From Luteibacter flocculans (GTDB lineage: Bacteria > Pseudomonadota > Gammaproteobacteria > Xanthomonadales > Rhodanobacteraceae), in assembly GCF_023612255.1 (NCBI RefSeq), contig NZ_CP063231.1, forward strand, positions 1,408,001 to 1,472,000: a stretch of 64,000 nucleotides of DNA, read 5' to 3'. Both the position numbers and the translations under genes were made by a program. Below, in pieces: positions 30,324 to 58,889 of this stretch (the first letter of the stretch is position 1; each line of letters opens with the position of its first letter). The notes below the pieces were generated by a model that ran no database searches, was not told where the DNA came from, and worked only from the letters and a program-made list of their open reading frames with translations.

Positions 30324-30386
30324 CCTGGCTTGTACCCGACGCCTCCGCAGGGCATGCTTCACCGGCGCATGCGCGGGGGACTAGGG

Positions 30387-31595
30387 ATGGATGCGAGCAA
30401 ACCATGGGTAACCGGGCTCGGTGTCATGTCGACACAGGGCACGGGTAAGGCAGCGTTTCTGCAAGGGCTGCTGGAAGGGCGAACATCGTTCGATGTGATG
30501 GCCCGTGAAGGACGCCAACACGATACGTCGCGCTTTCTGGGCGCCGAACTCGCCATGCCGGCCGCATCGGGTGCGGAGCGCACGCTTTCTCTTTCCGCGC
30601 GAGCCGCCCTTGCGGTCGTTGCCGAGGCTTGGGACGAAGCGGGCCTTGACCAGCTCGATCCCACCCGTGTCGGGCTAGTGATCGGCGGCAACAACGTACA
30701 ACAGCGCGAACAGGTGTTGGTGCACGACGCCTTTCGCGAACGGCGTGCGTTCGTTCGGCCGACGTATGGTCTGGGTTTCATGGACACCGATCTCGCCGGT
30801 GCCTGTTCGGCGCGTTTCGGTATTCGCGGTGCCGCTTTCACCGCCGGTGGCGCCTCCGCCAGCGGACAGCTGGCCATCATCCAGGCGCGCCACATGGTGG
30901 CATCCGGCCAGCTCGACGCGTGCGTGGCGGTAGGCGCCTTGATGGACCTTTCTTACTGGGAATGCTCGGGCTTCCGGGCGCTCGGTGCGATGGGTTCGAC
31001 GCAGTTTGCCGATGCGCCCATGCACGCATGCAGGCCATTCGATGTGCGGCACGACGGATTCATCTTCGGTGAGTGTTCCGCTGCCATCGTGCTCGAATCA
31101 CCGGGGTCGGCGACGCGCCGCGGCCGACACGTCTACGCCAGCCTGGATGGATGGGGTCTCGCCATGGATGCGAATCGTCAACCCGATCCATCCGTCGAAG
31201 GCGAGACGCGCGCGATGACCGAAGCGCTGGCGCGCGCGGGCTGGCAACCGCACGAGGTGGGCTATGTGAACCCCCACGGCACTGGCTCGGTGATCGGCGA
31301 CGAGACGGAGTTGGCCGCCTTGCGTGCGGCCGGTCTTTCCGGTGTCGCGCTCAACGCCACCAAGTCGCTGACGGGACACGGTCTGACGGCGGCGGGGGCG
31401 GTAGAGGTGGTGGCGACGCTGCTGCAGCTTCGCGCCGGCCGGCTTCACCCCACCGCCAACCTCGACGAGCCCATCGCGCAGGATTTTCAATGGGTAAGGG
31501 AAGGGGCCGTCGCGACCGACGCGCGTCGCGCCCTCAGCCTCAGTATGGGTTTTGGCGGCATCAACACCGCCTTGTGCTGGGAGATGCATGCATGA
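30387..31595 (+). CDS. Decarboxylating ketosynthase of the beta-branching cassette (KS with Ser at active site)
   Basis: 402 aa from ATG 30387, with a GGGGGA site 8-10 nt upstream. A stand-alone ketosynthase fold. The active-site box reads FTAGGASASGQ, with Ser157 (codon at 30855) in place of the Cys of ordinary KS. Both His motifs remain (PHGTGSVIGDE and KSLTGHG). This is the signature of the PksF/CurC/MupG group, which decarboxylates malonyl-ACP to acetyl-ACP for attack by HMG-CoA-synthase-like enzymes. The next gene, overlapping by 4 bp, encodes the ECH1 of the same cassette, which supports the call. The HMG synthase itself is not in the window. Confidence 0.9.
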   Translation: MDASKPWVTGLGVMSTQGTGKAAFLQGLLEGRTSFDVMAREGRQHDTSRFLGAELAMPAASGAERTLSLSARAALAVVAEAWDEAGLDQLDPTRVGLVIGGNNVQQREQVLVHDAFRERRAFVRPTYGLGFMDTDLAGACSARFGIRGAAFTAGGASASGQLAIIQARHMVASGQLDACVAVGALMDLSYWECSGFRALGAMGSTQFADAPMHACRPFDVRHDGFIFGECSAAIVLESPGSATRRGRHVYASLDGWGLAMDANRQPDPSVEGETRAMTEALARAGWQPHEVGYVNPHGTGSVIGDETELAALRAAGLSGVALNATKSLTGHGLTAAGAVEVVATLLQLRAGRLHPTANLDEPIAQDFQWVREGAVATDARRALSLSMGFGGINTALCWEMHA

Positions 31596-32394: not shown

Positions 32395-33690
32395 CTAGGC
32401 CCCCGCGAAGCGCAGTGGCAAGGTTTTCAGCCCGCCGACGAACACGGCCTTCGAGTGCTGTGGCGCACCGGCCAGCTCCAGTCCGGTGAGACGGGGCAGC
32501 AACTCTTCGAAGAACACGCGCATCTCCATGCGGGCCAGATGCTGCCCCAGGCACATGTGTCCGCCGAAGCCGAGCGCGACGTGCTTGTTCGGCGTGCGGT
32601 CCACGCGGAAAGCACGCGGATCGTCGAACACGGCCTCGTCCTGGTTGCCTGACATGTAGCAGAGCATCAACCAGTCGCCCTTGCGGATGAGCTGGTCGTT
32701 CAGTTCGTAGTCTTCCGTCGCGGTACGCATGAAATGACGCACCGGCGATGTCCAACGCATGGCTTCCTCGCCCAGGCCGGCAATCAGCGACGGGTCCGTG
32801 CGGAGTTTCTCGAACTCGGCCGGATGCGAAGCCAGGCCTAGCATGGCGCCCGCCGTCGACGCACTTACCGTGTCGTGGCCGGCCGTGGACACGAGCGAGT
32901 AATACGACATCGCTTCGAAGGCGCCGATCGGCTCGCCGTCGATCAAACCCTGCGCGATAACCGTGGCGAGATCGTCGCGCGGATTGGCGCGGCGGTCCTG
33001 CGTGATCGCGTCGAAGTAGCCGAAAAGTTCGTCCACAGCTGCCTGCAACCCCATCAGGCCCTGTTCCGCGGTGACCACCGTTTCGCCGGAGCGATTGAGA
33101 TCCTCGTCGAGGTTGCCGAAAACCTGCTTGGTCAGACGCAGCATCATGGGTTCGTCCTCGATAGGGACGCCGAGGATCTGCATGATGACGTGCAGCGGAT
33201 AGTGCACGGCGACCTCCGTTACGAAGTCGCATTCGTTGCCCTTTGCGAACATGCGGTCGACAAACCCGCGGGCGATGCCACGAATGGCGTCTTCGCGTCG
33301 CGACAGGTTCGACGCCGTGAACCAGTTGCTCGTCAGTGCACGGTACTTCCGATGATCCGGATCATCCATGTGCGCGAGCGTGCGCGCGAGGTGCGGGCTT
33401 CCGTCGCGCAGGTAACGAACGAGCAGATCGGTGTAACGGTCGGTCAGGATGGTGGCGCGATCGCCGTTGTGGAAGACCTTGTTGTTCTTGCTGACTTCGA
33501 GAATGTCCGCGTGACGCGTCACCACCCAGAACGGGTCGAAGTTGCGCGAGCGTGCGACACCGAGCGGCAGGTTCGCGCGAAGCCAGGCGTAAGTCGACGA
33601 GAGGCGTTCGATGTCCGCGTAGGTATGGGAATCGAGCAACGTCTGCGTGACGTCGGCCGGTAGTACAGGCGCTTCCACGGAACTATCCAT
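32395..33690 (-). CDS. Cytochrome P450 (tailoring oxygenase)
   Basis: 431 aa from the ATG at 33690, which has GGTGGGGA immediately upstream; the frame runs 20 codons further but without support. All P450 landmarks are present: I-helix STAGHDT (residues ~268-274), ExxR at 309-312, and the haem loop LGFGGHMCLG with thiolate Cys380 (the usual first Phe is Leu). There is no membrane anchor, so it is a soluble bacterial class enzyme needing outside ferredoxin partners; none are encoded nearby. Alone on the minus strand within the PKS cluster, it probably hydroxylates or epoxidises the polyketide. Confidence 0.94.
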   Translation of the reverse strand: MDSSVEAPVLPADVTQTLLDSHTYADIERLSSTYAWLRANLPLGVARSRNFDPFWVVTRHADILEVSKNNKVFHNGDRATILTDRYTDLLVRYLRDGSPHLARTLAHMDDPDHRKYRALTSNWFTASNLSRREDAIRGIARGFVDRMFAKGNECDFVTEVAVHYPLHVIMQILGVPIEDEPMMLRLTKQVFGNLDEDLNRSGETVVTAEQGLMGLQAAVDELFGYFDAITQDRRANPRDDLATVIAQGLIDGEPIGAFEAMSYYSLVSTAGHDTVSASTAGAMLGLASHPAEFEKLRTDPSLIAGLGEEAMRWTSPVRHFMRTATEDYELNDQLIRKGDWLMLCYMSGNQDEAVFDDPRAFRVDRTPNKHVALGFGGHMCLGQHLARMEMRVFFEELLPRLTGLELAGAPQHSKAVFVGGLKTLPLRFAGA

Positions 33691-33964
33691 TCCCCACCAT
33701 CCCTGCGTTGAAGATCGCGCGAGTGTCGTGCGCGTTTGGGTTGCGCGCAATCAGACAAATTCCTAAGGGATCTGTCATGAGGCGTGCATATGCTTATTAT
33801 TTCCTTTGTCTTCACAAGGCAATGCTGAGTTGCATATTGACGCAATTCTTGGCCTCGTGGTACATCGTTGGACTGGGGATTCAAGCGACTTTTCGTTTTT
33901 CGTCGGCTGACGTCACGTCAGTACGGGCGGAACTGTACGTTCGAGCGCTACACAGGGGATCAGG
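33691..33964. promoter_or_regulatory. Divergent control region between P450 and the ACP/PKS genes
   Basis: 274 bp, with an A+T-rich core (33755-33855) that stands out from the surrounding GC-rich DNA. Candidate promoter toward the PKS genes: CTGTCA (33772-33777), 17 nt, TATTAT (33795-33800). A second option is TTGACG (33837-33842), 18 nt, TACATC. The operator-like palindrome at 33908-33920 lies downstream of both. No proper sigma-54 site was found: the nearest look-alike near 33818 has a GG to GC spacing of 12, not 10. Confidence 0.45.
33908..33920. promoter_or_regulatory. Palindrome TGACGTCACGTCA, operator candidate for the PKS genes
   Basis: TGACGT and ACGTCA around a single central C, a perfect odd palindrome 45 bp before the free ACP gene and downstream of the putative promoter. 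It could bind a dimeric regulator in the leader or early transcribed region. Confidence 0.4.
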
Positions 33965-34319: not shown

Positions 34320-37300
34320 GTGAGCGAGATTCGCGCCGCATCCGGGGTTTCACGTTCCGCCACCACTTCAACGCAAGACAAGGGGACGAAAGCTCCCTTG
34401 CTGGTGCGCGCGTGCGACCTCGACAACGATCCCCGGTGGTCCGCCTGGGCTACTGCTTTGTTCGAGACCTACCGCAACGAAGGAGCGGCGTCGCGCGGTA
34501 TTGCGCACATCGCTCCCAACCTGTTTATCGATGCCGCACGTTCCGGCTACTTCCGGTACGCGCGCCGCGGGCGCGTACTGCTTGTGTACGCATTCATCGG
34601 GCCGGACGCATCGTTCGGGACGGCGGCGCGCGAACTGCTCGCGCATTGCGATGCCAAGGGTTACCAGCTCAACTTCCTGTCGCCCCGGCCCATCGATGCG
34701 ATCGGCGACCGCGTCTTCAGCGCGACGCCCTTCGGTGTCGTGCAGCGATTGGAAGACATCGATGCCTTCACGCTTGCGGGCGGTGCGATGCACCGGCTCC
34801 GCTACCAGGTCACCGGCTTTCAAAAGGCCGGGCGATGTACGGTCGAGGAATATGTCTGCGGCACGGACTCCGCCGTTGCCGCCGACATCGCACGAGTGAT
34901 CGACGCCTGGTGTAGCAAGAAAACGAAGATCAATCCTCTCGTACACACGGCACGTGAAGAAATCCTTGCCGGCACGCTTCACCCACGCCACCGCCTCTTC
35001 CTGACCCGCCTCGACGGGGTACTGCAGAACGTGGTGCTGATCTCGCCGCTGTCCGATCGCGACAATGGCTATCTGATGGACCTCGAGTTCTACGGCGACG
35101 ATATGCCGCGGGGCGGCCTCGAATTCGCCATCGTTCACATCATCAAGGTGCTTGCCGACGAAGGCCGCAAGGTCTTCAGCATGGGCGGCACCTACGGTTG
35201 CCGCATCGAGACCTCGCCGACGGCGGACCCCGCGGTCGATGCGCTCCTCGACGATCTGCACAAGCAGGGCATCTTCAACGACCAGGGCAATTTCCAGTTC
35301 AAGAACAAGTTCCGCCCGCTCAATAGAACCATCTACCTGTGCCGACCGATGGATGCGGGACGGGCAGACAGCGTCATCGACATCATCATGATGATTGCCG
35401 ACCCCTCTCGTTCGCCGACGGTTGCCGACGACCACACGCCACTCGAGCCTTTCGACACCACTGACGCAACGGGCGTCGGCGAGACGACGGAGGCGATCCT
35501 CGCAGTGCATGACATGCCGGACTCGCCGCGGTTGCGCGCGCTCTCGGAGGCGGGCTTCAATCCGCTCGGCATAGCGGCCGCCGACGTGCCGTTCGACGTG
35601 AAGTCCGACTCGTGGGCACAGGTGCCGAGCGACACGAAGGCGTCGCGGATGGCGGTACTGCACGAAGCGTTGCAACAACCCGTCGACGTGGATGGCGTGT
35701 TGCGCAAGGTCTTTCCCTACGACGCCTTCGTGCTGACCGAATCCGGGCGCAGCGCCGAGGAAGCGTTCTATCGAGCGTTCCAGCGGCGCGGACGAGTGTT
35801 GCAGAACATCGTGTTCCCCACGAATCTCGCGCATCAGATCGCCGCGGGGTTCACCCCGAAAGAGCTGCCGGTCACGGGTTTCGCGGGTTTCCAGTGCGTG
35901 GCGAACGGGCGAGGCGATATCGATCTCGAACGTTTGCCAGCCATGCTGGCCTCGATGCCGCAGGACATCGCCATGGTGTTCGTCGAACTCGCGAACAATG
36001 CCGCTGGCGGCGTGTCCGTCTCGCTCGATCACCTGCGTGCCGTGCGCGACCTCGTGCGCCCTCATGGCATTCCACTGGTCATCGATGCAACGCGCATCTT
36101 GGAAAACGTGCGCCTCGCGCAGCGCCAGGATGGACGCGAAGACGCCGACGTCTGGGGCGACGTCAGGGCATGGATGGAATGTGCCGACGCAGCCATCGTA
36201 AGTCTTGCCAAGGATTTCTGCGTGGATCGCGGCGGCCTCGTGTGTCTGCGCGATCAGGCACAGGCACGCGCTGTACGTGACGAGGCGCAACGCCAGGGCA
36301 CCGCGCTTCACGCGATGGATCGGAAGCTGGTGGCACTCGCGCTTCGCGAGCGCGGCGAGCTCGTTGCGCGCGTCGACGAACGCATGGCGACGGTACGTGC
36401 CTTGGCCGCGCTCTGCGCCGAGTTCGGCGTGCCCGTGGCAGACCCCGCGGGCGGTCATTGCGTGGTGATCGACGCGGGCCAGTGCGAGGCATTTCGTGGT
36501 GCGGACGATCCTGCGGCGGCGTTCTGCGCGTGGCTCTACCTCGCCAGCGGTATACGCGCCGGTCGCCACAGTACCGGCATGCAGCGAGGCGAAGGTGTTC
36601 GTTCCCTGGTACGTCTTGCCGTGCCGCTTGGCTGGTCGGCCGAGACGGCCGAGCGCTTTCTCGCCGCCGCGCGTGCCGCGTTCGCCCGCGTAGTGAACGT
36701 CCCCGTGCTGCGCGTGATCGACGGCAAGCAGGGTTTTGGCGACGCCATGGTCCGTTATGCGGCAGAAGGCTTCCGCCGCGTCGAACTCGCCGCTCTCCAC
36801 AAGGGACAGGACACCGTGACCGCAGTGCAGGGACGTTCGGAACACGTTGCAGATGCGGCGGCGTCCGATGAACGCCGCGACGAGGATGGTCCGCGACCGG
36901 ATGACATTGCCATCGTTGGCATGGCCGGGCGCTATCCCGGCGCGAAGCACGTGGGGCAGCTCTGGGAGAATCTGCGTGCAGGTGTGGACGGCATCACGCT
37001 GCTTCCCGAAGACCGCTGGGAGCGTCGCCTCCGTTATGGCGAGGCCGCCCGCTACCGGGGCGGATTCATCGACGAGGTGGATCGGTTCGATTCGCTGTTC
37101 TTCAACATTCCTCCGAAGGACGCGGAGCGCCTGGACCCCCAGGAGCGCCTTTTCGTGGAGGTGGCATGGGAAGCGTTGGAAGACGCCGGATACTACCCCG
37201 AGGCGATCGCTCGTTCCCCCGAAGGCAACCGCGTGGGCGTATTCGTCGGTGCGGTGTGGGCGATGTACCAGAGCGTCGGTGTCGAGGAGCGCCATGTCGG

Positions 37301-40300
37301 CCACTCGGCCGCTCCGAATTCTTTCCTCTGGAGCATTGCCAATCGCGTTTCGTACGCGATGAATTTTTCCGGGCCGAGCCTCACGGTGGACACGGCCTGC
37401 TCATCCAGCCTGACGGCGCTGTATCTTGCGTGTGAGGCCATTCGCCATGGCGAATGCACCTCGGCACTGGTCGGTGGCGTGAACCTCGACCTGCATCGCT
37501 CGAAGTGGGACATCAATTGGTCGGGCGGCGCGTTGTCGCCGGACGGCGTCTGCCGGAGCTTCGGTCAGGGCGCGAACGGTTACGTCGCTGGCGAGGGCGT
37601 GGGCGCCCTATACGTCAAGCCGCTTGCGCAGGCTCTCGCCGACGGCGATCAGGTGCATGGCGTCATTCGTGGCATCGCCGTCAACCACGGCGGACGCACG
37701 AGCGGTTTCATCGTGCCCAATCCGAAGGCACAAGCGCAGCTGGTGCAGGCGGCCATGGAGCGTGCAGGCGTGGCGCCGGGCACGATCGGATACATCGAGG
37801 CCCACGGTACAGGTACCGAGTTGGGCGACCCGCTGGAGATGTCTGCGCTGAACACGGCCTTTCGCGATGCCGGCATGCGCGAGGCCAGTTGCTCGGTCGG
37901 CTCACTGAAGTCGAACATCGGTCATCTCGAAGCCGCCGCTGGTGTGGCCGGTGTGACCAAGGTGTTGCTGCAGATGCGTCATCGCGAGTTGGTGCCGTCC
38001 CTGCATTCGAGCGTGCTCAACGAGCACATCGATTTCCGTGGGTCACCCTTCCGTATTCAACAACGGGCCGAGTCATGGGAGCCGATGGTGCCGGGTGCAC
38101 CCCTGCGTGCCGGTATCAGTTCGTTCGGTGCCGGTGGCGCAAATGCGCACGTGATCCTCGAACGCTACGAGCCGGCATCCTCGGCACAGGAAGAGGGCGT
38201 GCCATCCGCGCTCGTCTTCCCGCTCTCGGCGCGCACCGAGGCACAGCTGTCGGACATGGCGGCGCGCCTGCAGGGCTTTCTCGACGCGGACGCCGGCAAG
38301 ACGGCGCTGGTGGACATCGCCTTTACCCTGCAGGTCGGGCGCAAGCCGTTCGAACATCGACTGGCGATCGCCGCGTCGAGCGCGACCGAGCTGTCTACAC
38401 GACTCGGCATGTTCCTGGCCGGGCGCAAACACGCTGCGGTGGCGGCAGGCAGCGGGAAGACTGCCGATCCGGTGCTGCGGCTGCTCTCGCGCAGTGAGCG
38501 GCAGGCCATGTCGGCGATGCTGGCTTCCGGCGCCGATGCGAACAAGCTTGCGCGGCTGTGGGCCGATGGCTTGCTTGCCGACTGGCAGCACGCAGCGATC
38601 GCGGCGAAAGGGCGGCGTGTCTCGCTGCCTACCTATCCCTTCGCGGACAAGCGGCATTGGGTGCCGGACGAACCGCCCGCGCATGGCACTGCGGGCGGGC
38701 TGCCTGCCTTGCATCCGCTGATCGACGGAAATGAATCGACCTTCGATCGACAGGTTTTCAGGAAATCGTTTCACGATCGCGACTTCTTCATCTACGACCA
38801 CAAGGTCATGGATGTGCCCACGCTCCCTGGTGTCGCCTACCTGGAGCTGGCGCGCAAGGCGGGCGAGCTGGCCGCGGGGATGCCTGTTCGCCGCCTCAGG
38901 AACATTCTCTGGGTGAGCCCCATCGCGGTGCGCGGAAACGTGCACGAGGCGCGCGTCGAATTGTTGCCGGGTGCCGACGGTGTCGCCTTCGAGGTCTACA
39001 GCGAAGGCACGGGCGGCAACCGCATTCTGCATTCGCAGGGCAAGCTCGGCTACGCCGCGTCGGCAGGCGATGAGGCTTCGTCCGTCGATCTGGACGCCAT
39101 TCGTGCGCGCTGCCGCAAGGTCGCCGAGAGCGACGCCGTCTATCCGCGCTTCCGTGACCTCGGCCTCGATCTCGGTCCTTCGTTCCAGTCGCTGCGCGAG
39201 GTCTACAAGGGCGACGGCGAAGCACTCGGGCTGCTGCGCCTCCCGGCGTCGCGCCGCGGCGATCTGGCGTCGCTGCTGCTGCATCCGTCGCTCATCGATG
39301 GCGCGCTGCAGGCAGGCGTGGCCGCCGAACTCGTAGCCGGCGACGCACGCATGCTCGTGCCATTCTCGATCGGCGAGGTCGAAATTCTCGGCGCGCCCGG
39401 CGAGACCTGCTGGACTTGGGTCACCGAAGTGCGTGACGAACGCGCGGCCACCTCGGCCGTGTCGCGCAAGAATGTGACGATTCTCGATCCGGATGGCCAT
39501 GTTCTGGTGCGCATCCGCGAAGCCACCGGCGTTCCCATCGGTGAGGTGCACAAACCTTCGGCGGCGGCGAGCGACGACGTCTCGACGCACGTCTACCTGC
39601 CCACCTGGGACGAAAGCCCGGCAGTCGCGACGGCTACCCCGGACGGTGCGATTCTCGTACTGGACGATGCCGCCGAGACGAGCGAGGCCCTTGCTCGCCT
39701 GCATACCGGGATGGTGGCGCGGGTGAGTCTCGGCGAGCGCTTCGCGCAGACCGGCGATCGCCTGTTCCAGGTACGTCCGGGCAATGCCGACGACATGGAT
39801 CGGGTCATGGAGGTGACGGGCGTTCCCGCTCTCGCGATCACGACCGGCGCGCATGACGACGAAGGCCTCATCGACCGCGTATTCGGGCTCTATCAGTCGC
39901 TGGCGCGTCGGCGTCTCGAACGCCCCGTGCGTGTGCTGCACGGCATCGCGGCAGTCGGTGCGGGGCGTCCGCGCCAGCAGGCGCTCGTCGGCCTGCTTCG
40001 CTCGCTGCGCCTGGAAAACCCGCGGATCGATGGATCGGTCGTGGAGTGGGATGGCGACCCCGCGGACGCGATGGGTCTGGCTCGCGTGCTGATGGCCGAG
40101 AGCCTATGGAGCGACAGTGCCTGGATCCGCCACGTCGGTGGCTCACGCCAGACACCGAAGCTGGCGCGTCGGGACGAGGTGACCGCGCCGACGGAGCAGG
40201 GTGCGGCGCTCGCGCGCGGCGGCACCTGGTTCATCACGGGCGGCGCAGGCGGCCTGGGCATGATCTTCGCCGATTGGCTGGCGTCCACGCTGGACGCGCG

Positions 40301-43300
40301 GGTCGTGCTGATGGGGCGATCCGAGCCATCCGCGGAGCTGACCGCACGTTTTGCCGCATGGCGCGACGCAGGCGCCGATGCCATCTACGTCCGTGGCGAC
40401 GTGTCGTGTCGCGATGACGTGGCACGCTGCGTCGCCGAGGCACGCGCTCGTTTCGGGCCGCTGCACGGCATCATTCACTCTGCTGGCGTGTTGCGTGACG
40501 GCTATCTCCGACAGGCCACACGCGAAGACTTCGACGCGGTGCTCGCACCGAAGGTCGATGGCACACGGTTTCTGGACGAAGCCACGCAGGACGACCCCCT
40601 TGCCTGTTTCGTGCTCTGCTCGTCCATGGCGGCGCTGGGCGGCAATGCCGGACAGACGGCCTACGCCTATGCGAACCACTACATGGACGACTTTGCAGCC
40701 GCACGCGAGGTAGCGCGCAGCGCTGGGGAACGCCAGGGGCATACCCTGTCGGTGAACTGGTCCCTCTGGGCAGACGGCGGCATGCGTCTGGACGCTGCGA
40801 CGCAACGCATGTTTCTCGACAGCCTGGGCGTTGCCCCCTTGCCGAAGGACCGCGCGCTGGCGTGCTTCGAATCCGTGCTCTCGGCTGGCCATTCTCAGGT
40901 CGCGATCGTGGAAGGCATGCGCGATCGCATCGAGCGCGCCTGGGGCATCCGGAAGGAGAAGCCACGTACGTCGCAGCCGGCGGCATCTGCGACGGCAGCC
41001 GCCACGACCGGCAACGACCTCGCGGTGGCGGTGCGCGGCAGACTGCGCCAGATCGCGATGGACATGTTGAAGCTCGACGCAGAAGACATCGCGACCGACA
41101 GCGTGCTTCTCGATCTCGGTTTCGACTCGATCGGGCTCACGACCTACGCCAACGCGATCAATCAGGCGTATGGCGTCGAGGTGACGCCGGTACTGTTCTT
41201 CGATTACCCGTGCATTGCCGACGTAGCCGGCTATCTGTGCAGCGACTGCGCGACACAGGTCGCTGCCGTGCATGCCGCTTCATCGACGGAAACATCGTCG
41301 AGCGCCGCAACGCCAGCGACGTTGATGCCAGCGATCGGCAGCGGCGAACCGGTATTCGGCCGCAAGGCGTCCGCGGTCGTGGCCGGCGAGGCACCGGTCA
41401 TGGCTTCCCGCTCCAGTGGCAACCGGTTCCGCGACATGCCGATCGCCATCGTGGGCATGGCCGGTGTCATGCCCGGCTCCGACGACCTGGACGCGTTCTG
41501 GCAGCATCTGGACGCGGGCGACGATCTCATCAGTGTGATTCCGCGCGACCGCTGGAATTGGGAAGACTACTTCGGCGATCCGTTCAAGGAAGCCAATCGC
41601 TCCAATTCCAAGTGGGGCGGCTTCATGAACGAGGTCGACAAGTTCGACCCGCTGTTCTTCGGTATCTCGCGCCGGGAAGCGCAGATGATGGATCCGCAGC
41701 AGCGGATTTTCCTGGAAACGGTCTGGAAGGCGGTCGAGGACTCGGGCCATAAGGTCTCCGACCTCTCGGGCACGCGCACCGGCCTGTTCGTCGGCGTGGC
41801 GACCAATGACTACGTCGACGTGATGAACCGGCACGATATCGATCTGGACGGTTATTCCGCGTCCGGCAACTCGCATTCGGTGCTCGCCAACCGCATTTCG
41901 TTCCTGCTGAATCTGCGTGGGCCAAGCGCGCCGATCGACACGGCGTGTTCCAGTTCGCTGGTGGCATTGCATCGTGCCATCGAGTCGATCCACACCGGTA
42001 GCTGCGACATGGCGCTGGTCGGTGGCGTGCAGGTCATGCTGAGCCCCGGCGCGTACATTTCCTTCGGCATGGCCGGGATGCTGAGCAACGACGGTCGCTG
42101 CAAGACCTTCGACAAGCGTGCCGACGGTTACGTGCGGGGTGAAGGTTCCGGCGCCATCTTCATCAAGCCGCTGGATCGCGCCGAACGGGATGGCGATCAC
42201 ATCTACGCGGTGATCCGGGCGACCGCCGAAAACCACGGGGGCCGGGTGACCACGCTCACCGCCCCCAACTCGAATGCCCAGGCCGAGCTTCTTGTCGATG
42301 CCTATACCAAGGCCGAGGTGCCGATCTCCGACGTGGGCTACATCGAATGCCACGGTACCGGTACGAGCCTGGGCGATCCCATCGAGATCCAGGCCCTGAA
42401 AAAGGCGTTCGCCGAACTTCACGCGCGACAGGGCACGACGCCGGCGGAGGCGTACTGCGGCCTCAGCTCGGCCAAGACCAATATCGGTCATCTTGAAACC
42501 GCCGCGGGCATCGCAGGCATCCTGCGAGCGGTGCTCGCACTGCGCGCGCGGCGCATTCCGGCCAACGTGCATTTCGAGGAAGTGAATCCATACATCGATC
42601 TCAAGGCGTCACCGTTCTACATCGCCAGCGGCACGCGGGACTGGTCGGCGCCGTGCCGTGCAGGGGTCGATCGACCGCGCGTGGCCGGCATCAGCTCGTT
42701 CGGTTTCGGCGGTGCCAATGCGCACGTCGTGATCGAGGAATACGTGCCTGCACCGATGCCGGTATCGCCGCCACGCGAGCGCGTCTACCCGCTCTCGGCA
42801 CGCGACGAAGTCAGGCTCAGGGAGTACGTGACGCGGATGCTGGATCACGTTGCGCGCGATCCAGACATCGATCTCGGACGCCTTGCCTGGACGTTGCAGG
42901 TGGGTCGCGATCCGATGCAGGCGCGTGTCGCCGTGGTGGCGACCGACAGGGCGTCGCTGCTGGATGCGTGGCGTGGCGTACTGGCGGGAGCGCCGAGCCG
43001 GGCCGCGTGGGCCGGTACGGTCAAGGGTGAAGTGGACATGGCGGAGCTGCCGTCCACCGTGGACGCATCGTCCCTCGCCGCCGCCTGGGTGGCCGGCGCG
43101 CGGATCGATTGGTCCGCGCGCTGGGACGGACCCACACCGCGTCGCCTCGCGCTACCGCCGTACCCGTTCGCTCGCGAGCGTTGCTGGCTACCTGGCGTGG
43201 AGGGCTTCCGAAGAGATGCGTCCGCGGCGAAGGCGGCCGACGTGACCGACGTCCCGCTCGCGGTGACGCCGGTCGACGCATCGGTCACGCTGCTTGCCGT

Positions 43301-44969
43301 ACCGGCGTGGGTGCCCGTCCAACTCGCGGGCACGGCACGCGAGCGCCCTCGTCATGTATGGGTGCTCGGCCTCGACACGGCTGGGCTCGCGGCAGCGATG
43401 CCGACGGCGGACATCCATGCGTTACCCCTGGTCAGCACGGCGGAAGACGCGTTCGGTGCCTGGGTGCTCGCCTGTTTCGAGCGGCTGTCCGCACTGCGTG
43501 CGCCTGCGCTGTTGCAATGCGTCGTCGCGGGCGATGCAGCCGATCTCGCCATCGGCCTGGAAGGCATGTTGCGCACCGTAAGCCACGAACGTCCGGGGCT
43601 CGACACCCAATGGGTCGTCGTCCCTGCCGGATCGGACGACGCCAGCGTGGCCGCGTGGCTCGATCGAGCCGCCTGCGATCCGCCGAAGCCGGTGCTCAAG
43701 GTATCGGCCGATGGGACATGGATGGCATGGCAGCGCAGCGCTGTCGAAGTGGACGCTTCCCCCGCGCCGTGCGCGTATCGCGAACACGGAGTGTTCCTCA
43801 TCACCGGAGGACTTGGCGGTTTGGGTACCCTGTTTGCGCGCGACATTCTCACGCGAACCCGGCACGCCAAGGTCGTGCTCAGCGGACGCGCGATGCCGGA
43901 AGGTGAGCGTCGTACGCGCATCGATGCGCTCAGGCGCGAAGGCGGCGATCGGGTAAGGTTCGCGGCGCTCGATCTCGACGACGCGGCCTCGGTGCGCAAG
44001 GCCATCGACGCGATCGTGCAGGCGGAAGGGCGGCTCGATGGCGTCATTCACGCCGCCGGCATGACAGATGACGGGCGCACGGAAAGCAAGAGCCGCGCGT
44101 CGATCCACGCGGTGCTCGCGCCCAAGTGGCGTGGCACGGTCCATCTCGATCACGCCACACGGCATCTGGGTATGGATTTCTTCGTGCTGTTTTCCTCGGT
44201 GGTGGGCACCTTGGGCAACCCGGGACAATTCGACTACGCCGCGGCAAACGGCTTCATGGACGCCTATGCGGCGCGTCGCTGCGCGGAGGGCGCCACCGGC
44301 TGGTCCTCGATCGGGTGGCCGCTGTGGGCGGACGGCGGCATGCATGTGGCGCAGGACGTCCAGGCGGCCGTCCGCGCGCATACGGGCATGGAGCCGCTGC
44401 CGACGTCCATCGGCATCCACGCCTTCCATCACTGCCTCGCGAGCCGGTACGCCCAGCCGCTGGTGATGTTCGGCAGGCCCGATGCGCTGCGCACCACGCT
44501 TGAAGGCAAGGCACGCGTCGCGGCGCCAGCGATGGTGGGTGCCCTGGACGAGGCGCATGTCGCAGCAGTGCGCGAACGCATCCTCGCCGTTGTGGTGGAC
44601 ACCCTGCTGGTGCCGGCCGGGGACATGGACCCGCAGGCGCCGCTGAGCGACTACGGCCTGGACTCGATCGGTATCGCGAACCTGTTCCGCGGCGTGAACC
44701 GTTCGCTCGGTATCGAACTGGCGCCGTCCACGCTGTTCGAGCACCCGTCACTGGATGCGCTGGCGCGTCACGTCGCCAGCCTGGTAGCGCCGGTGCCCGT
44801 CGCAACGGGCGCCACGCAGCACGCCGACGACGATGAGGTGGAAATCGTGTTCGACATCGACGATGCCGAGCCGATCACGGAGGGTGAGCCGGATGCGATG
44901 GCCTTGCTCGACGCGGTGCTGTGGCGTGAGGGGGATGAAGAGGAAGGCTACGAGCGCGTGACGTTCTGA
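34320..44969 (+). CDS. Trans-AT polyketide synthase 1: LPG/GNAT-like, PLP lyase, KS-DH-KR-ACP, KS-KR-ACP
   Basis: 3549 aa from GTG 34320, with TAAGGA ~8 nt before it; the upstream frame overlaps the ACP gene and is a shadow. Domains (residues): DUF2156/LPG-synthase-C-like acyl- or aminoacyl-transferase fold ~25-345 (MDLEFYGDDMPRGGLEF, FSMGGTYG). Tryptophanase/tyrosine phenol-lyase-like PLP domain ~430-800, with SGR phosphate loop, DATR (Asp589, Arg592) and Schiff-base Lys631 in LAKDFCVDRGG. KS 861-1280 (Cys1027, His1162, His1202). DH ~1464-1745 (His1494, Asp1660; the Gly of HxxxGxxxxP is Asp). KR ~1968-2220 (Tyr2115). ACP Ser2270. KS from 2373 (Cys2543). KR from ~3157 (Tyr3306). ACP Ser3449. 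The tail is acidic. There is no AT, so malonyl loading is in trans. Module 1 should give an alkene, module 2 a hydroxyl. Confidence 0.93.
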   Translation: MSEIRAASGVSRSATTSTQDKGTKAPLLVRACDLDNDPRWSAWATALFETYRNEGAASRGIAHIAPNLFIDAARSGYFRYARRGRVLLVYAFIGPDASFGTAARELLAHCDAKGYQLNFLSPRPIDAIGDRVFSATPFGVVQRLEDIDAFTLAGGAMHRLRYQVTGFQKAGRCTVEEYVCGTDSAVAADIARVIDAWCSKKTKINPLVHTAREEILAGTLHPRHRLFLTRLDGVLQNVVLISPLSDRDNGYLMDLEFYGDDMPRGGLEFAIVHIIKVLADEGRKVFSMGGTYGCRIETSPTADPAVDALLDDLHKQGIFNDQGNFQFKNKFRPLNRTIYLCRPMDAGRADSVIDIIMMIADPSRSPTVADDHTPLEPFDTTDATGVGETTEAILAVHDMPDSPRLRALSEAGFNPLGIAAADVPFDVKSDSWAQVPSDTKASRMAVLHEALQQPVDVDGVLRKVFPYDAFVLTESGRSAEEAFYRAFQRRGRVLQNIVFPTNLAHQIAAGFTPKELPVTGFAGFQCVANGRGDIDLERLPAMLASMPQDIAMVFVELANNAAGGVSVSLDHLRAVRDLVRPHGIPLVIDATRILENVRLAQRQDGREDADVWGDVRAWMECADAAIVSLAKDFCVDRGGLVCLRDQAQARAVRDEAQRQGTALHAMDRKLVALALRERGELVARVDERMATVRALAALCAEFGVPVADPAGGHCVVIDAGQCEAFRGADDPAAAFCAWLYLASGIRAGRHSTGMQRGEGVRSLVRLAVPLGWSAETAERFLAAARAAFARVVNVPVLRVIDGKQGFGDAMVRYAAEGFRRVELAALHKGQDTVTAVQGRSEHVADAAASDERRDEDGPRPDDIAIVGMAGRYPGAKHVGQLWENLRAGVDGITLLPEDRWERRLRYGEAARYRGGFIDEVDRFDSLFFNIPPKDAERLDPQERLFVEVAWEALEDAGYYPEAIARSPEGNRVGVFVGAVWAMYQSVGVEERHVGHSAAPNSFLWSIANRVSYAMNFSGPSLTVDTACSSSLTALYLACEAIRHGECTSALVGGVNLDLHRSKWDINWSGGALSPDGVCRSFGQGANGYVAGEGVGALYVKPLAQALADGDQVHGVIRGIAVNHGGRTSGFIVPNPKAQAQLVQAAMERAGVAPGTIGYIEAHGTGTELGDPLEMSALNTAFRDAGMREASCSVGSLKSNIGHLEAAAGVAGVTKVLLQMRHRELVPSLHSSVLNEHIDFRGSPFRIQQRAESWEPMVPGAPLRAGISSFGAGGANAHVILERYEPASSAQEEGVPSALVFPLSARTEAQLSDMAARLQGFLDADAGKTALVDIAFTLQVGRKPFEHRLAIAASSATELSTRLGMFLAGRKHAAVAAGSGKTADPVLRLLSRSERQAMSAMLASGADANKLARLWADGLLADWQHAAIAAKGRRVSLPTYPFADKRHWVPDEPPAHGTAGGLPALHPLIDGNESTFDRQVFRKSFHDRDFFIYDHKVMDVPTLPGVAYLELARKAGELAAGMPVRRLRNILWVSPIAVRGNVHEARVELLPGADGVAFEVYSEGTGGNRILHSQGKLGYAASAGDEASSVDLDAIRARCRKVAESDAVYPRFRDLGLDLGPSFQSLREVYKGDGEALGLLRLPASRRGDLASLLLHPSLIDGALQAGVAAELVAGDARMLVPFSIGEVEILGAPGETCWTWVTEVRDERAATSAVSRKNVTILDPDGHVLVRIREATGVPIGEVHKPSAAASDDVSTHVYLPTWDESPAVATATPDGAILVLDDAAETSEALARLHTGMVARVSLGERFAQTGDRLFQVRPGNADDMDRVMEVTGVPALAITTGAHDDEGLIDRVFGLYQSLARRRLERPVRVLHGIAAVGAGRPRQQALVGLLRSLRLENPRIDGSVVEWDGDPADAMGLARVLMAESLWSDSAWIRHVGGSRQTPKLARRDEVTAPTEQGAALARGGTWFITGGAGGLGMIFADWLASTLDARVVLMGRSEPSAELTARFAAWRDAGADAIYVRGDVSCRDDVARCVAEARARFGPLHGIIHSAGVLRDGYLRQATREDFDAVLAPKVDGTRFLDEATQDDPLACFVLCSSMAALGGNAGQTAYAYANHYMDDFAAAREVARSAGERQGHTLSVNWSLWADGGMRLDAATQRMFLDSLGVAPLPKDRALACFESVLSAGHSQVAIVEGMRDRIERAWGIRKEKPRTSQPAASATAAATTGNDLAVAVRGRLRQIAMDMLKLDAEDIATDSVLLDLGFDSIGLTTYANAINQAYGVEVTPVLFFDYPCIADVAGYLCSDCATQVAAVHAASSTETSSSAATPATLMPAIGSGEPVFGRKASAVVAGEAPVMASRSSGNRFRDMPIAIVGMAGVMPGSDDLDAFWQHLDAGDDLISVIPRDRWNWEDYFGDPFKEANRSNSKWGGFMNEVDKFDPLFFGISRREAQMMDPQQRIFLETVWKAVEDSGHKVSDLSGTRTGLFVGVATNDYVDVMNRHDIDLDGYSASGNSHSVLANRISFLLNLRGPSAPIDTACSSSLVALHRAIESIHTGSCDMALVGGVQVMLSPGAYISFGMAGMLSNDGRCKTFDKRADGYVRGEGSGAIFIKPLDRAERDGDHIYAVIRATAENHGGRVTTLTAPNSNAQAELLVDAYTKAEVPISDVGYIECHGTGTSLGDPIEIQALKKAFAELHARQGTTPAEAYCGLSSAKTNIGHLETAAGIAGILRAVLALRARRIPANVHFEEVNPYIDLKASPFYIASGTRDWSAPCRAGVDRPRVAGISSFGFGGANAHVVIEEYVPAPMPVSPPRERVYPLSARDEVRLREYVTRMLDHVARDPDIDLGRLAWTLQVGRDPMQARVAVVATDRASLLDAWRGVLAGAPSRAAWAGTVKGEVDMAELPSTVDASSLAAAWVAGARIDWSARWDGPTPRRLALPPYPFARERCWLPGVEGFRRDASAAKAADVTDVPLAVTPVDASVTLLAVPAWVPVQLAGTARERPRHVWVLGLDTAGLAAAMPTADIHALPLVSTAEDAFGAWVLACFERLSALRAPALLQCVVAGDAADLAIGLEGMLRTVSHERPGLDTQWVVVPAGSDDASVAAWLDRAACDPPKPVLKVSADGTWMAWQRSAVEVDASPAPCAYREHGVFLITGGLGGLGTLFARDILTRTRHAKVVLSGRAMPEGERRTRIDALRREGGDRVRFAALDLDDAASVRKAIDAIVQAEGRLDGVIHAAGMTDDGRTESKSRASIHAVLAPKWRGTVHLDHATRHLGMDFFVLFSSVVGTLGNPGQFDYAAANGFMDAYAARRCAEGATGWSSIGWPLWADGGMHVAQDVQAAVRAHTGMEPLPTSIGIHAFHHCLASRYAQPLVMFGRPDALRTTLEGKARVAAPAMVGALDEAHVAAVRERILAVVVDTLLVPAGDMDPQAPLSDYGLDSIGIANLFRGVNRSLGIELAPSTLFEHPSLDALARHVASLVAPVPVATGATQHADDDEVEIVFDIDDAEPITEGEPDAMALLDAVLWREGDEEEGYERVTF

Positions 44970-45055
44970 TGGAGCTCGGCGTACGACCGGGCGAGTAGTG
45001 GGTAGGGGTGGCGTTTTTGCATGGGCACGAAGCGTGTCCTGGTTGGGGGAAAAGG

Positions 45056-48000
45056 ATGTTGGATCCAGCACGCTGTATCGTCGCGTTTCTCGCGGCGCCG
45101 CTCCGGGATGCCCTGCAGGCCGGACGAGCGCCGGATGGCGCCCGCCCCGTCCTCGACGGCCTGGGCCTGGGCGCGTGGATCGACGATGGGACGGCCCCGG
45201 TAACATCGTTTTACGGTGCGGACGCGACAACGCGTGCCGATCTCGTGGCGCGCTGGCATGCGATCACGTCGTCGGATGCTCCATGCACCCATGCCCTCGC
45301 CGTGCTGGCGGCGGCAACGTTGCACGAGACGGGTGCGAGCACGGTTGAGACGTCACTCGCCGCCTTGCCGCCGGACGTCGCGAATGCGCTTCGCCACGTC
45401 ATGGCGGTGGTGGGTTGGGACGTCGCCGACGCGTCGTCGCTGATCTTCTCGTCGAGGATGACCGCAGCGGTGGCCTGCCGAGGGGGCCTGCTCGCCTGCG
45501 CTACGGGCGATGTCGCAACGGCAGCGGCAAGCCTCGATGCCTATGCACTGCGCTTGGCAGCGACGGGAATGGTGCCACCGGAAGCGACGGAAACCGCAGA
45601 GACGGACGCTCCGCCTGCCGCGCATGCACACGCTGCACCGGCGACACCACTGGGGGCGCTGGTGGCGATGCTCGATGCTGCGGCGGGACGGCAGCCATCC
45701 ACTGCAGCCGAGGTGCTGGAATCGGCGGGTGCGCGCGGGTTCTACGACGAAGGCGACCGGTTGCCGTACGCCGAGGGAGCGCCGCTCTTCGGTGCCTATC
45801 GCTGGGCGCGGCATCCCTCACGTGTGCGCCGCGCGACGCTGGCGGATTTGCCCCGTCTTCTCGAGCTGGAACACCTCTGCTGGGATCACACACGCAGCGA
45901 CGAGACGGTGCTGCGTCGTCGCATCGATACGTATCCTGCAGGCCAGTTCGTCATCGAGATCGATGGTGCCGTGGCGGGATGCGTGTACAGCCAACGCGTC
46001 GTCACGACGGACGCACTCACCACGGTCACTGCGTACGACGTACATACCTTGCACCGGGCCGATGGTGGCCTGGTGCAGCTGCTTGCGATCAACATCGATC
46101 CACGTTGGCAGGATCAGCGGCTCGGCGATCGCCTGCTCGAATTCCTGCTGCGCCTGGCAACGGTCACCGAAGGCGTGGAGGGCGTGGTCGGCGTCACCTT
46201 GTGCAAGCGCTTCGACGGCGCAAGCCAAGATGACTTCGATACGTATGTCCAGCGCGATGGCACGGGGCAGGACCCGGTGCTCGCTTTTCATCAGGCACAC
46301 GGCGCGTCCATCGTGCGCGCAGTACCGGGGTATCGCCCCGACGATGCAGTCAATCGGACCAACGGCGTACTGGTCGCCTACGATCTCGTCGATCGCCTTG
46401 CACGCATCCGCGCCGCGTGTCCTTCGGGCAGCGCGCCGCTTGCGGGTGCATCGGAGCGCGATCTTGCGCGTTGGGTGGGGCAACGCGTGAAAGCCTTGCT
46501 CGGAAACGACAGCGCGGCTTACGCCGCGGAACGGCCGCTCATGGAAATGGGGGTGGATTCCGCAGGCCTTCTGGCCCTGCAGCGCGACCTGGAAGGCGCT
46601 CTGGGCCGCGCCTTGCCCGGTGCCTTCTTCTTCGAACACAACACCGTCGCGCGCATCGCCGCGGCACTCGGCATCCGCGACGTCGCGCCCGCGCCCGCGC
46701 CGATGGTCACCGCGCCGGCGCGCACGGCGGCGCCAATGGATGTGCGTGCCGGCGATATCGCCATCGTCGGCGTGGCCTGTCGGCTACCCGGAGGCGTCGC
46801 GTCGCCCGACGCCTTGTGGAAGGCGTTGGACGAGGGAACGAACCTGATCGGCAGCTATCCGGCGTCGCGTGGACGCTGGGCGTCGCCGTCCCGGTATCCG
46901 GGCATCGACCGGGGCGGTTTCGTCACGGATATCGAAGCGTTCGATGCGGCGTTTTTCCGCATCTCGCCGGCCGAGGCGCGCCTCATGGACCCCCAGCAGC
47001 GGCTCGTGCTGGAACTGGCATGGCAAAGCCTCGAGGATGCAGGCGTCGTACCGGCATCGCTCGCCGGCAGGGACGTCGGTGTATTCGTGGGTGCGAGCAA
47101 CGCCGACTACAGCCGCCTGTTGCAGGAACAGGGCGAGGACGCCGAGGCGCATCTGGGCGTCGCCAGTTCGCTCGCTGTCATCGCCAATCGCGTGTCGTAC
47201 TTCTTCGATCTCGGCGGCCCGAGCCTGCTGCTCGATACGGCGTGCTCGTCATCGCTCGTGGCGCTGCATACCGCGGTGCAATCGCTACGCCGTGGCGAAT
47301 GCTCCAGCGCGCTCGTGGCGGGCGTGAACGTGATCTGCCACCCCGATCTGTCCGTGGCCTATCACAAGGCCGGCATGCTCTCGCCGGACGGGTTGTGCAA
47401 GGTGTTCGATGCACGGGCGGACGGCTACGTGCGCGCCGAGGGAGCCGTGGCGATGTACCTGAAGCCACTGGCCGATGCATTGGCCGATGGCGACCCGGTG
47501 CAGGGCGTGGTGCGTGGTACGGCCATCAACCACGGTGGTCTCGCCAGCGGGCTTACCGTACCCAATCCGCGCAAGCAGCGCGATCTTCTGCTCGCGGCTT
47601 GGCGGGACGCCGACATCGACGCGTCGGCCATCGGTTACCTCGAAGCCCACGGTACGGGGACATCGCTGGGCGATCCGATCGAAGTCGAGGCGATCCGCGG
47701 TGCGCGTGCCGCTGCCGGGCTGGCTGGAAGTACCGCGCCCTGCGGCATCGGTTCGTTGAAGAGCCAGCTCGGCCACTTGGAATCCGCCGCCGGCTTGGCC
47801 GGGGTGCTCAAGGTCGTGCTTACCCTTCGCCACGATCATGTGCCTGCGACGCTGCATTTCAATCATCTCAATCCGAAGATCCAGCTGACGGACGGGCTGC
47901 GGGTGCAGTCGCCTGCCGCACCCTGGCCCGACGGGCCACGTATCGCTGGCGTCAGCAGTTTCGGATCGGGCGGCGCGAACGCGCACGCAGTCGTTGCTGC

Positions 48001-51000
48001 GTATCCAGAGACGATGGCGGCCGAACCTTCCGAGGGGCCGCACCTGTTCGTGCTGTCCGCTCATGATCCGGAGCGCCTGCGGGTTGCGGTGGCACGTGCG
48101 GTGGACTGGCTGGAGGGTGACGGACGCCACGCGCCGTTTGCAGCAGCGATCCGTACGTGGCAATGCGGTCGCACCGCGTTGCCGCACCGTATCGCGTTGC
48201 GTGTCGAGCGCCGCGAGCAACTGGTGGAGCGCCTGCGCGCATGGCTTGCTGGCGCGACGCAGGTCGATGATCTTTGGTCGGGTGACACCTCCGGCGCAAT
48301 CGACGGCCTGGACATGTGGCGCACGCCTGCTGCGCAGGCGTTGATTGCCCATGCCGCTCGCGAGGGCGATCTCACCCAACTGGCGACGCTGTGGGCGCGG
48401 GGTGTACCGGTGGACTGGTCGACGCTGCATGCATCACGGCAACGGATCGCCGGGCTTCCGTCGTATCCGTTCGCGCGCGACCGTCACTGGATCGATGCCG
48501 CTTCCGACGGGCTGGTATCCGCCGCGGGCCTCCACCCGATGTTGCACGTCAACGTTTCCGGTCTCTCGGGCGCGGCGTATACGTCGTCGTTCCGCGGAAG
48601 CGAACCGTTCCTTGCCGACCATCGTGTCCGGATCGGCGATCGCGTCGATCCGGTGCTGCCGGCTGTTGCGTACGTCGAAATGATGTGCGCCGCCTTCGAA
48701 CGCGCCACGCCTGTGGCAGAGCGCGGCAGTGGCATCGCCTTGACCCATGTGGCCTGGATGGCGCCGCTCATCGTGCGCAGCCCGGCGCAGGTGCACGTTG
48801 TCCTCAGCGTCGACGACGCGGGTAGCGTGCGTTGCGATATCGCGAGTGGCGACGAGGCACGCGTACCGCACGGTGTAGGCCACCTTGCATGGGCGTCCGA
48901 CGACACGCCGGAGGCGGTCGATCTCGCCTCGCTGCGAGCGCGCCTTGACGACGCGTCGGACGCAGGCTCGCTCTATGCACGGCTGGAAGAGCTGGGTTTG
49001 ATCTACGGCCCGGCGCACCGCGCCTTGGCTCGGTTGCGCCAGGGCCGCGACGAAGTACTTGCTGAACTGGTGTTGCCGCCATCGTTGCTCGCGACGGCTG
49101 GCGCGTATCGCTTGCATCCGTCGCTGGCGGATGCCGCCTTGCAGGCCTGTCTCGGTCTTCAAGGCGGATCGGACGCCGAGCCTCGGCTGCCATTTTCGGT
49201 CGAGCATGCCTGGATACGCTGCGACGGCTCCCGCTTGCCGAGCGTCGCCTGGATACGTCGCGCGGGCGAAGGCGACGAGCGAATCGATATCGATCTATGC
49301 GCGGAGGACGGCACGGTCGTCGCCGCGTGGCGCGGTTTCAGCACGCGCCGCATCGTCGCGACTGCCGCACCGCGCGTGCAGATCGGTGCCTCGACGTGGC
49401 AGGCCATCGTTGACGAGGCACCCGCACTGCCATGGCAGCGCCGAGTGCGTCTCACTCTCGGGACTCGCGCCTGGCCTTCGGCGACGCGGCTTGCGGTCGA
49501 GCCCACGGACGTCGTGGCGGTGGTCACAGCGTGTCTTGCCCATATCCAGGCGTCGTTCGCGACGCGTGACGCCGAACCCTGCCTGTTTCAGATCGGCATC
49601 GACGAAGGCTCCGCCCTGGGTGACGGTCTTGCCGCGATGTTCCGCACGATCGCACGCGAGGAACCTCGTTGGCACGGGCAGGTGCTGGTCGCACCGGCCT
49701 CGGTCGATGGCGATGCGTTCTCTGCCTGGGCCGATGCGATGGCGGCACGGCCAGGGCTGAAGCTGGTGCGCTGGAAGACGCACGGTCTGGGAGAAACGCC
49801 GGCATGGAACTTCATGCCGGGCGTGCCCGATGGCGTGCCTTACCGAGAGCATGGCGTCTATCTCGTCACCGGCGGACTTGGGGGCATCGGGTCGCTGGTC
49901 GCCACAGACATTCTGTCCAGGGCCGCGCATGCACGTGTTGTCGTCGGTGGGCGCGGTGCTCTGGAGGGCGAACGTGCCGTGCGCTTCGAACGACTTCGTC
50001 GGCGCTTTGGCGAACGCATCGACTATCGTTCGATGGATCTCGCCGACGATACGAACGTCGCTGCCGCCATAGCGGGCATCGTCGCTTCGCATGGCGCACT
50101 TCACGGGGTATTTCATGCTGCGGGAACCACACGCGATGCGTTCGTCAGGGGCAAGGCGCTCGATGACGTAGCCGCGGTGCTGGCACCGAAGGTGGCCGGT
50201 ACGCTGTCGCTGGACGCTGCGACCGTCCGGCTCGCATTGGACACGTTCGTCTGCTTCTCGTCGACGACGGCTGCGCTCGGTCAGGTCGGTCAGGCCGACT
50301 ATGCGGCGGCGAACGGATTCATGGATGGCTTCGCGCGGCTGCGCAACATGCGCGTGGCTGCGGGAGAGCGACACGGGCGGACGCTCTCCATCGCATGGCC
50401 GCTGTGGAAGGACGGTGGCATGCGCATGGACGATGTCGCCCGGCGCGAGTGGCAAAAGGCGACCGGCATGCTGCCCCTTGGGACGGACGACGGTCTGCGC
50501 GCCCTGCGTGCAGTGCTGCTATCGGGTATCGAGCACGGCATCGTCATGTCGGGACGCGTCGACGCCTTGCAGCGCACGCTGGACGCGACCCGTAAGGCCG
50601 CCCCGGCGACGTTGCCGCGTGATGCACAAATGATCGCCGCGCCCGCGTCGGCAGGTGACGACCTTCGCGCCGCCGTGGAGACGTGGTTGCGCGGCGAGCT
50701 GGCACGGGTACTGAAGACACCGGCGGACCGCGTGCAGGCCAGTGCTGCGTTCGAGACCTTCGGCATGGACTCGATCCTGGCGATGGCGTTGACCGGTGCA
50801 TTGGAGAAGACCACCGGCCCGTTGCCCAAGACGCTCCTGTTCGAGTATCGGAACCTGAGCGAACTTGCCGGCTATCTCATGACGTCGCACGCGGACTCGC
50901 TCACGGCACGCTTTGCGGTAACGCCTGCGCAGCGTGCGGTGGCATCGGTGGCGGCGCGTACGCTGCCCGCGCCCACGGCGAAACTTCCCGCGCTTGCCCG

Positions 51001-58885: not shown

Positions 58886-58889
58886 TCGC

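Follow-up and report, generated by a model that had tools for sequence, protein, structure and literature searches.

A leinamycin-kind DUF-SH didomain beside a free carrier protein, probably its own and probably in mid-line, in a trans-AT polyketide synthase of Luteibacter flocculans

Background

What does a lysyl-phosphatidylglycerol (LPG) synthase-like domain, fused to a tryptophanase-like, pyridoxal phosphate (PLP)-dependent lyase, do at the beginning of a large polyketide synthase (PKS) protein? The question is raised by the gene PKS1 of Luteibacter flocculans, which lies in the window analysed here, a stretch of 64,000 nucleotides from a 4.3-Mb genome in a single contig. A sequence-only reading had taken the pair for a loading module without known precedent, in which the first domain places an amino acid on a neighbouring acyl carrier protein (ACP) and the second acts on it by beta-elimination, giving a rare starter or a sulfur or nitrogen function. 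We find that the pair is not a new one: it is the DUF-SH didomain known from synthases of the leinamycin kind. The didomain of PKS1 is real, intact and informative, and its placement in a loading module was probably wrong. A supposedly new loading module thus becomes a known, little-studied sulfur-insertion unit with a probable place in the assembly line.

Results

The gene cluster

PKS1 (34320..44969, forward strand) has the domain order DUF-SH-KS-DH-KR-ACP-KS-KR-ACP according to Pfam and domain scans, and its C-terminus is an acidic tail. The free ACP gene that had been noticed directly before it is real (P0002, 33965..34288, forward strand; 107 residues; Pfam PP-binding E 1.7e-12); a gap of 31 bases separates it from the GTG start of PKS1 at 34320, with AAGGA upstream of the GTG. 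Further upstream on the same strand lies a free ketosynthase (KS) gene (30330..31595; Pfam ketoacyl-synt) whose motif, GGASASG, has Ser replacing the active-site Cys, and which we take to be of the HMGS-cassette type. A cytochrome P450 gene on the reverse strand (32395..33750; Pfam E 3.7e-23) stands between the free KS and the ACP, in the window as well as in 7 of the 7 other loci with a free ACP.

PKS2 follows on the forward strand (45008..58885), with a GNAT-ACP loader and then KS-DH-KR-ACP-KS-ECH-ECH-ACP-KS-DH, as judged from a match to the CurA GNAT domain and from domain scans; PKS3 (58878..64000, forward strand, from domain scans) runs past the end of the window. Beyond it, downstream, are PKS4, an asparagine-synthase-like gene, a metallo-beta-lactamase-fold (MBL) gene, HMGS, a donor ACP, AT and NRPS genes. 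The synthase is of the trans-AT kind, with AT absent from the Pfam results for PKS1 to PKS4 and present as a free gene. A search of the whole window against Rfam gave no match at gathering scores.

Several other features of the cluster deserve mention. Both PKS2 (window positions 52385-54907) and PKS3 (L004 3067-5364) have an apparent tandem pair of in-cis ECH domains before Trp-flag ACPs, the first ECH being a weak match. Directly after PKS4, and also in the related genome G116, listed in the same genus, is an asparagine-synthase-like amidotransferase (L005 5606-7453), possibly responsible for an amide-forming step. The MBL-fold protein (L005 7431-8351) has as its best solved relative 4ysb (E 8.6e-22), which we take to be a bacterial persulfide dioxygenase; it could serve in self-protection, or it could be an ordinary trans-AT acyl hydrolase.

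Identity of the DUF-SH pair

Both folds recognised by the sequence-only reading were confirmed by profile searches. Its assignment of the N-terminal 345 or so residues to an LPG synthase-like fold agrees with a match to DUF2156/LPG_synthase_C (residues 75-342, window 34542..35345, forward strand; E 2.9e-17, 63.1 bits against a cut-off of 27.5), and its tryptophanase- or tyrosine phenol-lyase (TPL)-like domain is matched by Beta_elim_lyase (residues 461-710; E 5e-29, 102 bits against a cut-off of 27). The motif DATR at residues 589-592 and the Schiff-base lysine, Lys631 (codon 36210..36212, forward strand), are where that reading had put them. With the SH domain at 35502..36689 (forward strand), identified by the 9cen_A match and the SH tree described below, the pair extends from about 34542 to 36689, within the 34390-36740 first assigned to it. 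In this trans-AT synthase a DUF2156/LPG_synthase_C domain thus stands immediately before a Beta_elim_lyase domain, and an ACP lies beside the DUF.

The "unknown domain" and PLP lyase of leinamycin-type synthases, which had been mentioned only as a parallel, are the same pair: the text of Milano 2013 gives LnmJ (Q8GGP2) as CP-CP-DUF2156-PLP3, and Lysobacter F8TUA6 and Kordia A9ECY5 as CP-DUF2156-PLP3-KS (PMC3870968). Since both the pair and the N-terminal layout were already in print, the latter in 2013, neither is new. According to the text of Meng 2021, 109 dereplicated biosynthetic gene clusters contain DUF-SH, with three families outside leinamycin among them (PMC8479088).

The solved structure closest to the SH domain is 9cen_A, "Polyketide Synthase Protein" (E 7.6e-51), followed by TPL (E 1.1e-36); 9cen_A is also the top solved relative of a Streptomyces SH domain of the C-terminal type. 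Matches to curated families were significant but fell below the required scores: 171.7 of 285 bits for the tryptophanase subfamily NF009709 (E 2.3e-50), 126.9 of 720.7 bits for the tyrosine phenol-lyase family TIGR02618 (E 9.8e-37), and 98.5 of 825.8 bits for TIGR02617. By these scores the SH domain is akin to tryptophanase and TPL yet outside the curated families. A tree of 33 lyase domains, from which locus L045 was omitted because only the start of its SH is present, placed the window, 13 N-terminal-type and 6 leinamycin-type domains on one side (100/100) and 13 free tryptophanase-like proteins on the opposite side; the leinamycin-type rows were assigned from layout, LnmJ by name being absent among the loci. 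The PLP-site residues F499, N560, D589, T591, R592, K631 and R765 are kept in 18 of 18 SH rows, and R477 in 17 of 18; residues were matched to TPL by an alignment to its structure as far as this reaches. We take Lys631 to correspond to Lys257 of TPL, and R765 to Arg404. The PLP site of the window SH is therefore intact, and we regard the domain as a putative thiocysteine lyase.

Distribution among genomes

A genome search for the same fusion, one of the checks proposed with the sequence-only reading, found further DUF-SH PKSs. Genome contigs scanned for two peptide patterns of the DUF yielded 23 loci: 14 with an N-terminal DUF-SH (followed by a KS where the contig continues), 6 of the C-terminal type, and 3 with the DUF alone. 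Loci that are also numbered genomes were counted once (L033, L034, L036, L037 and L045 are G116, G187, G226, G225 and G230, respectively), and L044 was counted as N-terminal. The C-terminal-type loci have the order KS-ACP(-ACP)-DUF-SH and then an alpha/beta-hydrolase-like tail, with GxSxG in 5 of the 5 examined, L050 being cut. A fused DUF-SH is present in 6 of the 233 genomes of the family, our own included, plus 1 cut by a contig end, and in 2 of the 369 genomes of the class sample, again including our own, at E <= 1e-60.

Two loci are unusual. At L044 (9491-22475), from a metagenome-assembled genome (MAG), the DUF and the SH are in separate reading frames, through a frameshift, an assembly error or a real split. 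At L072 (G371:C32:90145-92412), from a gammaproteobacterium of another family, a DUF-SH with 35% identity lies within an open frame of 7013 residues.

Place in the assembly line

PKS1 is the first of the large PKS genes in the cluster, but the domains suggest that the line begins elsewhere. The N-terminus of PKS2 matches the CurA GNAT loader with E 3.4e-44 and continues into an ACP, so that this GNAT-ACP loader (45773..46669, forward strand) is likely to be the true start of the line. PKS4 ends in KS-DH, with neither ACP nor TE. Its final KS has an intact Cys-His-His, while the DH after it (L005 4099-5628) lacks both catalytic motifs, HxxxGxxxxP and DxxxQ/H.

Help comes from a relative, G224, a genome in a single contig. 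Several PKSs, the last of them ending in a bare KS, are followed by HMGS, ECH, a donor ACP, a free KS and two ATs, then by ACP-DUF-SH-KS-DH-KR-ACP-KS, and then by further KS genes and a TE; ACP-DUF-SH is here in mid-line. No loader was identified in G224, where the first PKS found begins with a methyltransferase-like stretch and an ACP. The bare KS end and the cassette also precede ACP-DUF-SH in L040, L041 and L042. These layouts suggest that DUF-SH probably works in mid-line, and that the PKS1 gene merely stands before the other PKS genes. For the window we infer the order PKS2, PKS3, PKS4, then the free ACP with PKS1, so that PKS1 is not first in line, and after it probably the NRPSs. The latter have TubC docking domains (L005 14574-17963, C-A-T; L006 181-10686, three C-A-T and a TE) and may continue the line from the acidic tail of PKS1.

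In trans-AT synthases KS phylogeny follows the substrate, and a single clade of KSs after SH would be expected if these KSs read the product of DUF-SH. The KS after SH in PKS1 (36894..38024, forward strand; Cys-His-His intact) does fall in one clade with its counterparts: all 6 of the 6 that were placed group together (100/100), these being the window, G116 and G224, with L037, L038 and L042 as the 3 that the tree took from the 14 N-terminal-type loci. We also expected a common clade for the KSs before ACP-DUF-SH, but the same tree did not group those of the window and G116 with those of G224 and L042. The equivalence of position between the window and G224 or L042 therefore rests on layout. 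Taken together, a single clade after SH and none before it would mean that the output of DUF-SH is alike among these systems and its input different.

The carrier protein beside DUF-SH

Each of the 14 N-terminal-type loci has an ACP immediately in front of DUF-SH, encoded by a separate gene in 7 of them and fused in the other 7. The free-gene form occurs in Luteibacter (including the window), Rhodanobacter, Tahibacter and Lysobacterales relatives. Together with the window, the 15 DUF-adjacent ACPs form one lineage, supported by 96/96 in a tree of 50 rows and by 91/86 in a tree of 47 rows, from which 1 KS fragment and 2 long branches had been dropped. Sister to it are the 5 rows that represent the second ACP of the tandem in leinamycin-type modules, at 91/86 in the first tree and still 88/93 in the second. 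With an alignment of only 89 columns, and with groups defined once the first tree was known, these values suggest, and do not show, a dedicated lineage to which that second ACP also belongs. An AU test in which the lineage was held with the first tandem ACP instead was borderline (p 0.052, not rejected).

Two other identities for the free ACP were considered and rejected. It is not an ordinary branching ACP of the Trp-flag kind: the Trp is absent, and grouping with the cluster's own three Trp-flag ACPs was disfavoured (AU p 0.008). Nor is it the HMGS donor ACP, which is present separately between HMGS and AT, likewise in G116; moreover, 7 relatives carry a member of this ACP lineage as a fusion with DUF-SH. 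As a separate observation, L048 (Micromonospora sp. RHAY321) has a C-terminal-type DUF-SH with a single ACP of the first type and no tandem, which counts against the idea of a dedicated lineage.

The weishanmycin paper of 2024 leaves open, in its text, whether sulfur is inserted on the first or on the second ACP (PMC7618002). The ACP lineage favours the second as the carrier. We put forward tentatively, at a little under even weight, that a dedicated ACP travels with DUF-SH in both architectures and that sulfur is installed there ("pathway b" of PMC7618002) and not on a branching ACP; a KS followed by ACP-DUF-SH-KS would then be a portable mid-chain insert, leaving a thiol or hydropersulfide inside the chain and not at its end. 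The second-type ACP of weishanmycin is described as having no part in condensation or HMGS branching (PMC7618002), which speaks against condensation and branching on the free ACP; yet in the window the DUF-SH module shows no ACP other than this related one.

Discussion

We consider it quite likely that PKS1 carries a leinamycin-kind DUF-SH acting on its own carrier in the middle of a trans-AT line, with the last KS of PKS4 delivering to the free ACP, the DUF adding cysteine or thiocysteine, and the SH leaving -SH or -SSH. In this scheme that KS would extend the chain onto the free ACP, leaving a beta-ketoacyl chain, since neither a KR nor a functional DH comes after it. The HMGS cassette (free KS, HMGS, donor ACP and ECH) would probably convert it into an alpha,beta-unsaturated branched thioester. 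The DUF would then add cysteine or thiocysteine to the unsaturated chain by conjugate addition, and the SH, with PLP on Lys631, would eliminate pyruvate and ammonia so that a thiol or hydropersulfide stays on the chain, which would pass to the KS after SH. What the sequence-only reading had proposed survives here in its two folds, in the link to the neighbouring ACP, and in a beta-elimination giving a sulfur function; the starter role and the lack of precedent do not.

Which sulfur donor is used bears on the product. Thiocysteine lyase activity was demonstrated in 2021 for three leinamycin-family SH domains (PMC8479088). A variant that overlaps with the reading above keeps the same module and position, with cysteine as the donor and a plain thiol installed. 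The original description of LnmJ-SH was indeed that of a cysteine lyase, and each of the three SH domains assayed also cleaves the cysteine adduct; however, all three preferred the thiocysteine adduct, cleaving the other 50- to 106-fold less efficiently (PMC8479088), and the window SH shares a clade with the leinamycin-type domains. We regard cysteine as an unlikely donor, if one still to be taken seriously.

The role of HMGS is the next point of doubt. Its cassette is present in the cluster, as the free KS with Ser, HMGS, a donor ACP, and ECH domains in cis in PKS2 and PKS3. No free ECH gene was found in the cluster to account for dehydration on the free ACP, and neither HMGS nor a free KS was found in the flanks examined of 4 of the 14 N-terminal-type loci (L038, L039, L043 and L049). 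In a second overlapping variant, DUF-SH would work without HMGS: an upstream module would make the double bond and the chain would merely be handed to the free ACP. The missing ECH fits this variant, as do the DH and KR of upstream modules. On the other hand, the terminal KS of PKS4, with its Cys-His-His, looks condensing, and all 7 of the 7 free-ACP loci, like the window, have a free KS with Ser close to DUF-SH; we therefore think this variant rather unlikely.

The chemistry assigned to the DUF, addition of (thio)cysteine, has been proposed in the literature on leinamycin (PMC8479088, PMC7618002). A profile built from the 23 DUFs can be matched along almost its entire length to solved MprF-type proteins (best 5vrv, E 3.4e-15), and the DUFs share with them the D and the K.KF.P stretch. 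This likeness would suit a DUF that is a tRNA-dependent aminoacyl transferase, taking cysteine or cysteine persulfide from Cys-tRNA. However, at the position where MprF-type proteins, including the genome's own MprF, have D-L-M-R, the stretch typical of tRNA-dependent LPG synthases, all 23 DUF rows have D-x-E-F, and the DUF shares 16-22% identity with the MprF domain of the genome itself. The Arg of D-L-M-R is essential in MprF. Its replacement disfavours plain aminoacyl-tRNA transfer, and with it the aminoacyl transfer onto the ACP that had been proposed for the first domain. Ester-type transfer would also, we reason, leave no S-linked free cysteine, which SH needs; in the reasoning of PMC8479088 the PLP mechanism requires an S-linked cysteine whose amino group is free. 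We judge a tRNA-dependent DUF to be very unlikely.

The DUF also occurs by itself, in three betaproteobacterial MAGs (L053 4305-5345, L054 10085-11188 and L055 10016-11119), with 40-41% identity to the window DUF. Its neighbours in L054 include an SDR, an AMP-binding ligase, a free PKS-type dehydratase and an MBOAT; no PLP lyase was found among the 10 ORFs scanned there, 2 of which had no family match. A free dehydratase next to a stand-alone DUF is in keeping with a DUF that acts on enoyl thioesters.

Highly improbable, finally, is a loading module in which the free ACP receives an amino acid from the first domain, for conversion by the PLP domain into an unusual starter: PKS1 is the first of four large PKS genes, with a free ACP before it, and its DUF belongs to an aminoacyl-transferase family, but PKS2 carries its own GNAT-ACP loader, PKS4 ends without ACP or TE, ACP-DUF-SH is in mid-line in G224, and leinamycin-type synthases have the same pair in their last module (PMC7618002).

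If DUF-SH on its own carrier works as we propose, the hydropersulfide-bearing polyketides that Luteibacter and its relatives may make would represent new chemistry; no title among the papers listed in literature searches named such a product, most subscription papers being accessible by title only. A single-ACP system with a free ACP of 107 residues is also simpler than the leinamycin synthases for testing which ACP carries the chain and what the DUF does. Compared with the text of the cited papers, supplements aside, this analysis adds the module assignment in Luteibacter, the free carrier beside the fused forms, and the suggested lineage of dedicated ACPs.

Comparison with known systems

PKS1 resembles the leinamycin-family DUF-SH proteins (LnmJ, GnmT and WsmR) in the two domains, their order, and the ACP before them; the window SH shares a clade with SH domains of leinamycin-type layout, and the window's cluster likewise has an HMGS cassette, with a free KS bearing Ser, HMGS and a donor ACP. 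It is not a leinamycin-type PKS proper, whose terminal module is KS-ACP-ACP-DUF-SH-TE: where the leinamycin family has the pair C-terminal, before the TE, in PKS1 it is N-terminal and followed by a KS and more modules, with a single ACP encoded by a separate gene, and it is probably not in the last module.

The non-leinamycin DUF-SH PKSs of Lysobacter and Kordia have the same Pfam order, CP-DUF2156-PLP-KS-KR-CP-KS, although the layouts in the text of Milano 2013 show no DH. Like PKS1, non-leinamycin systems have one ACP and no TE in the DUF-SH module (PMC7618002). The window differs from the CP-DUF2156-PLP3-KS proteins in that its carrier is a free gene. Tryptophanase and TPL (TIGR02617, TIGR02618) share with the PKS1 SH their family and PLP-site residues, while the SH scores under their cut-offs and forms a separate clade; and MprF or LPG_synthase_C proteins match the DUF profile at near full length, from which the DUF differs by its D-x-E-F and by an identity of 16-22%.
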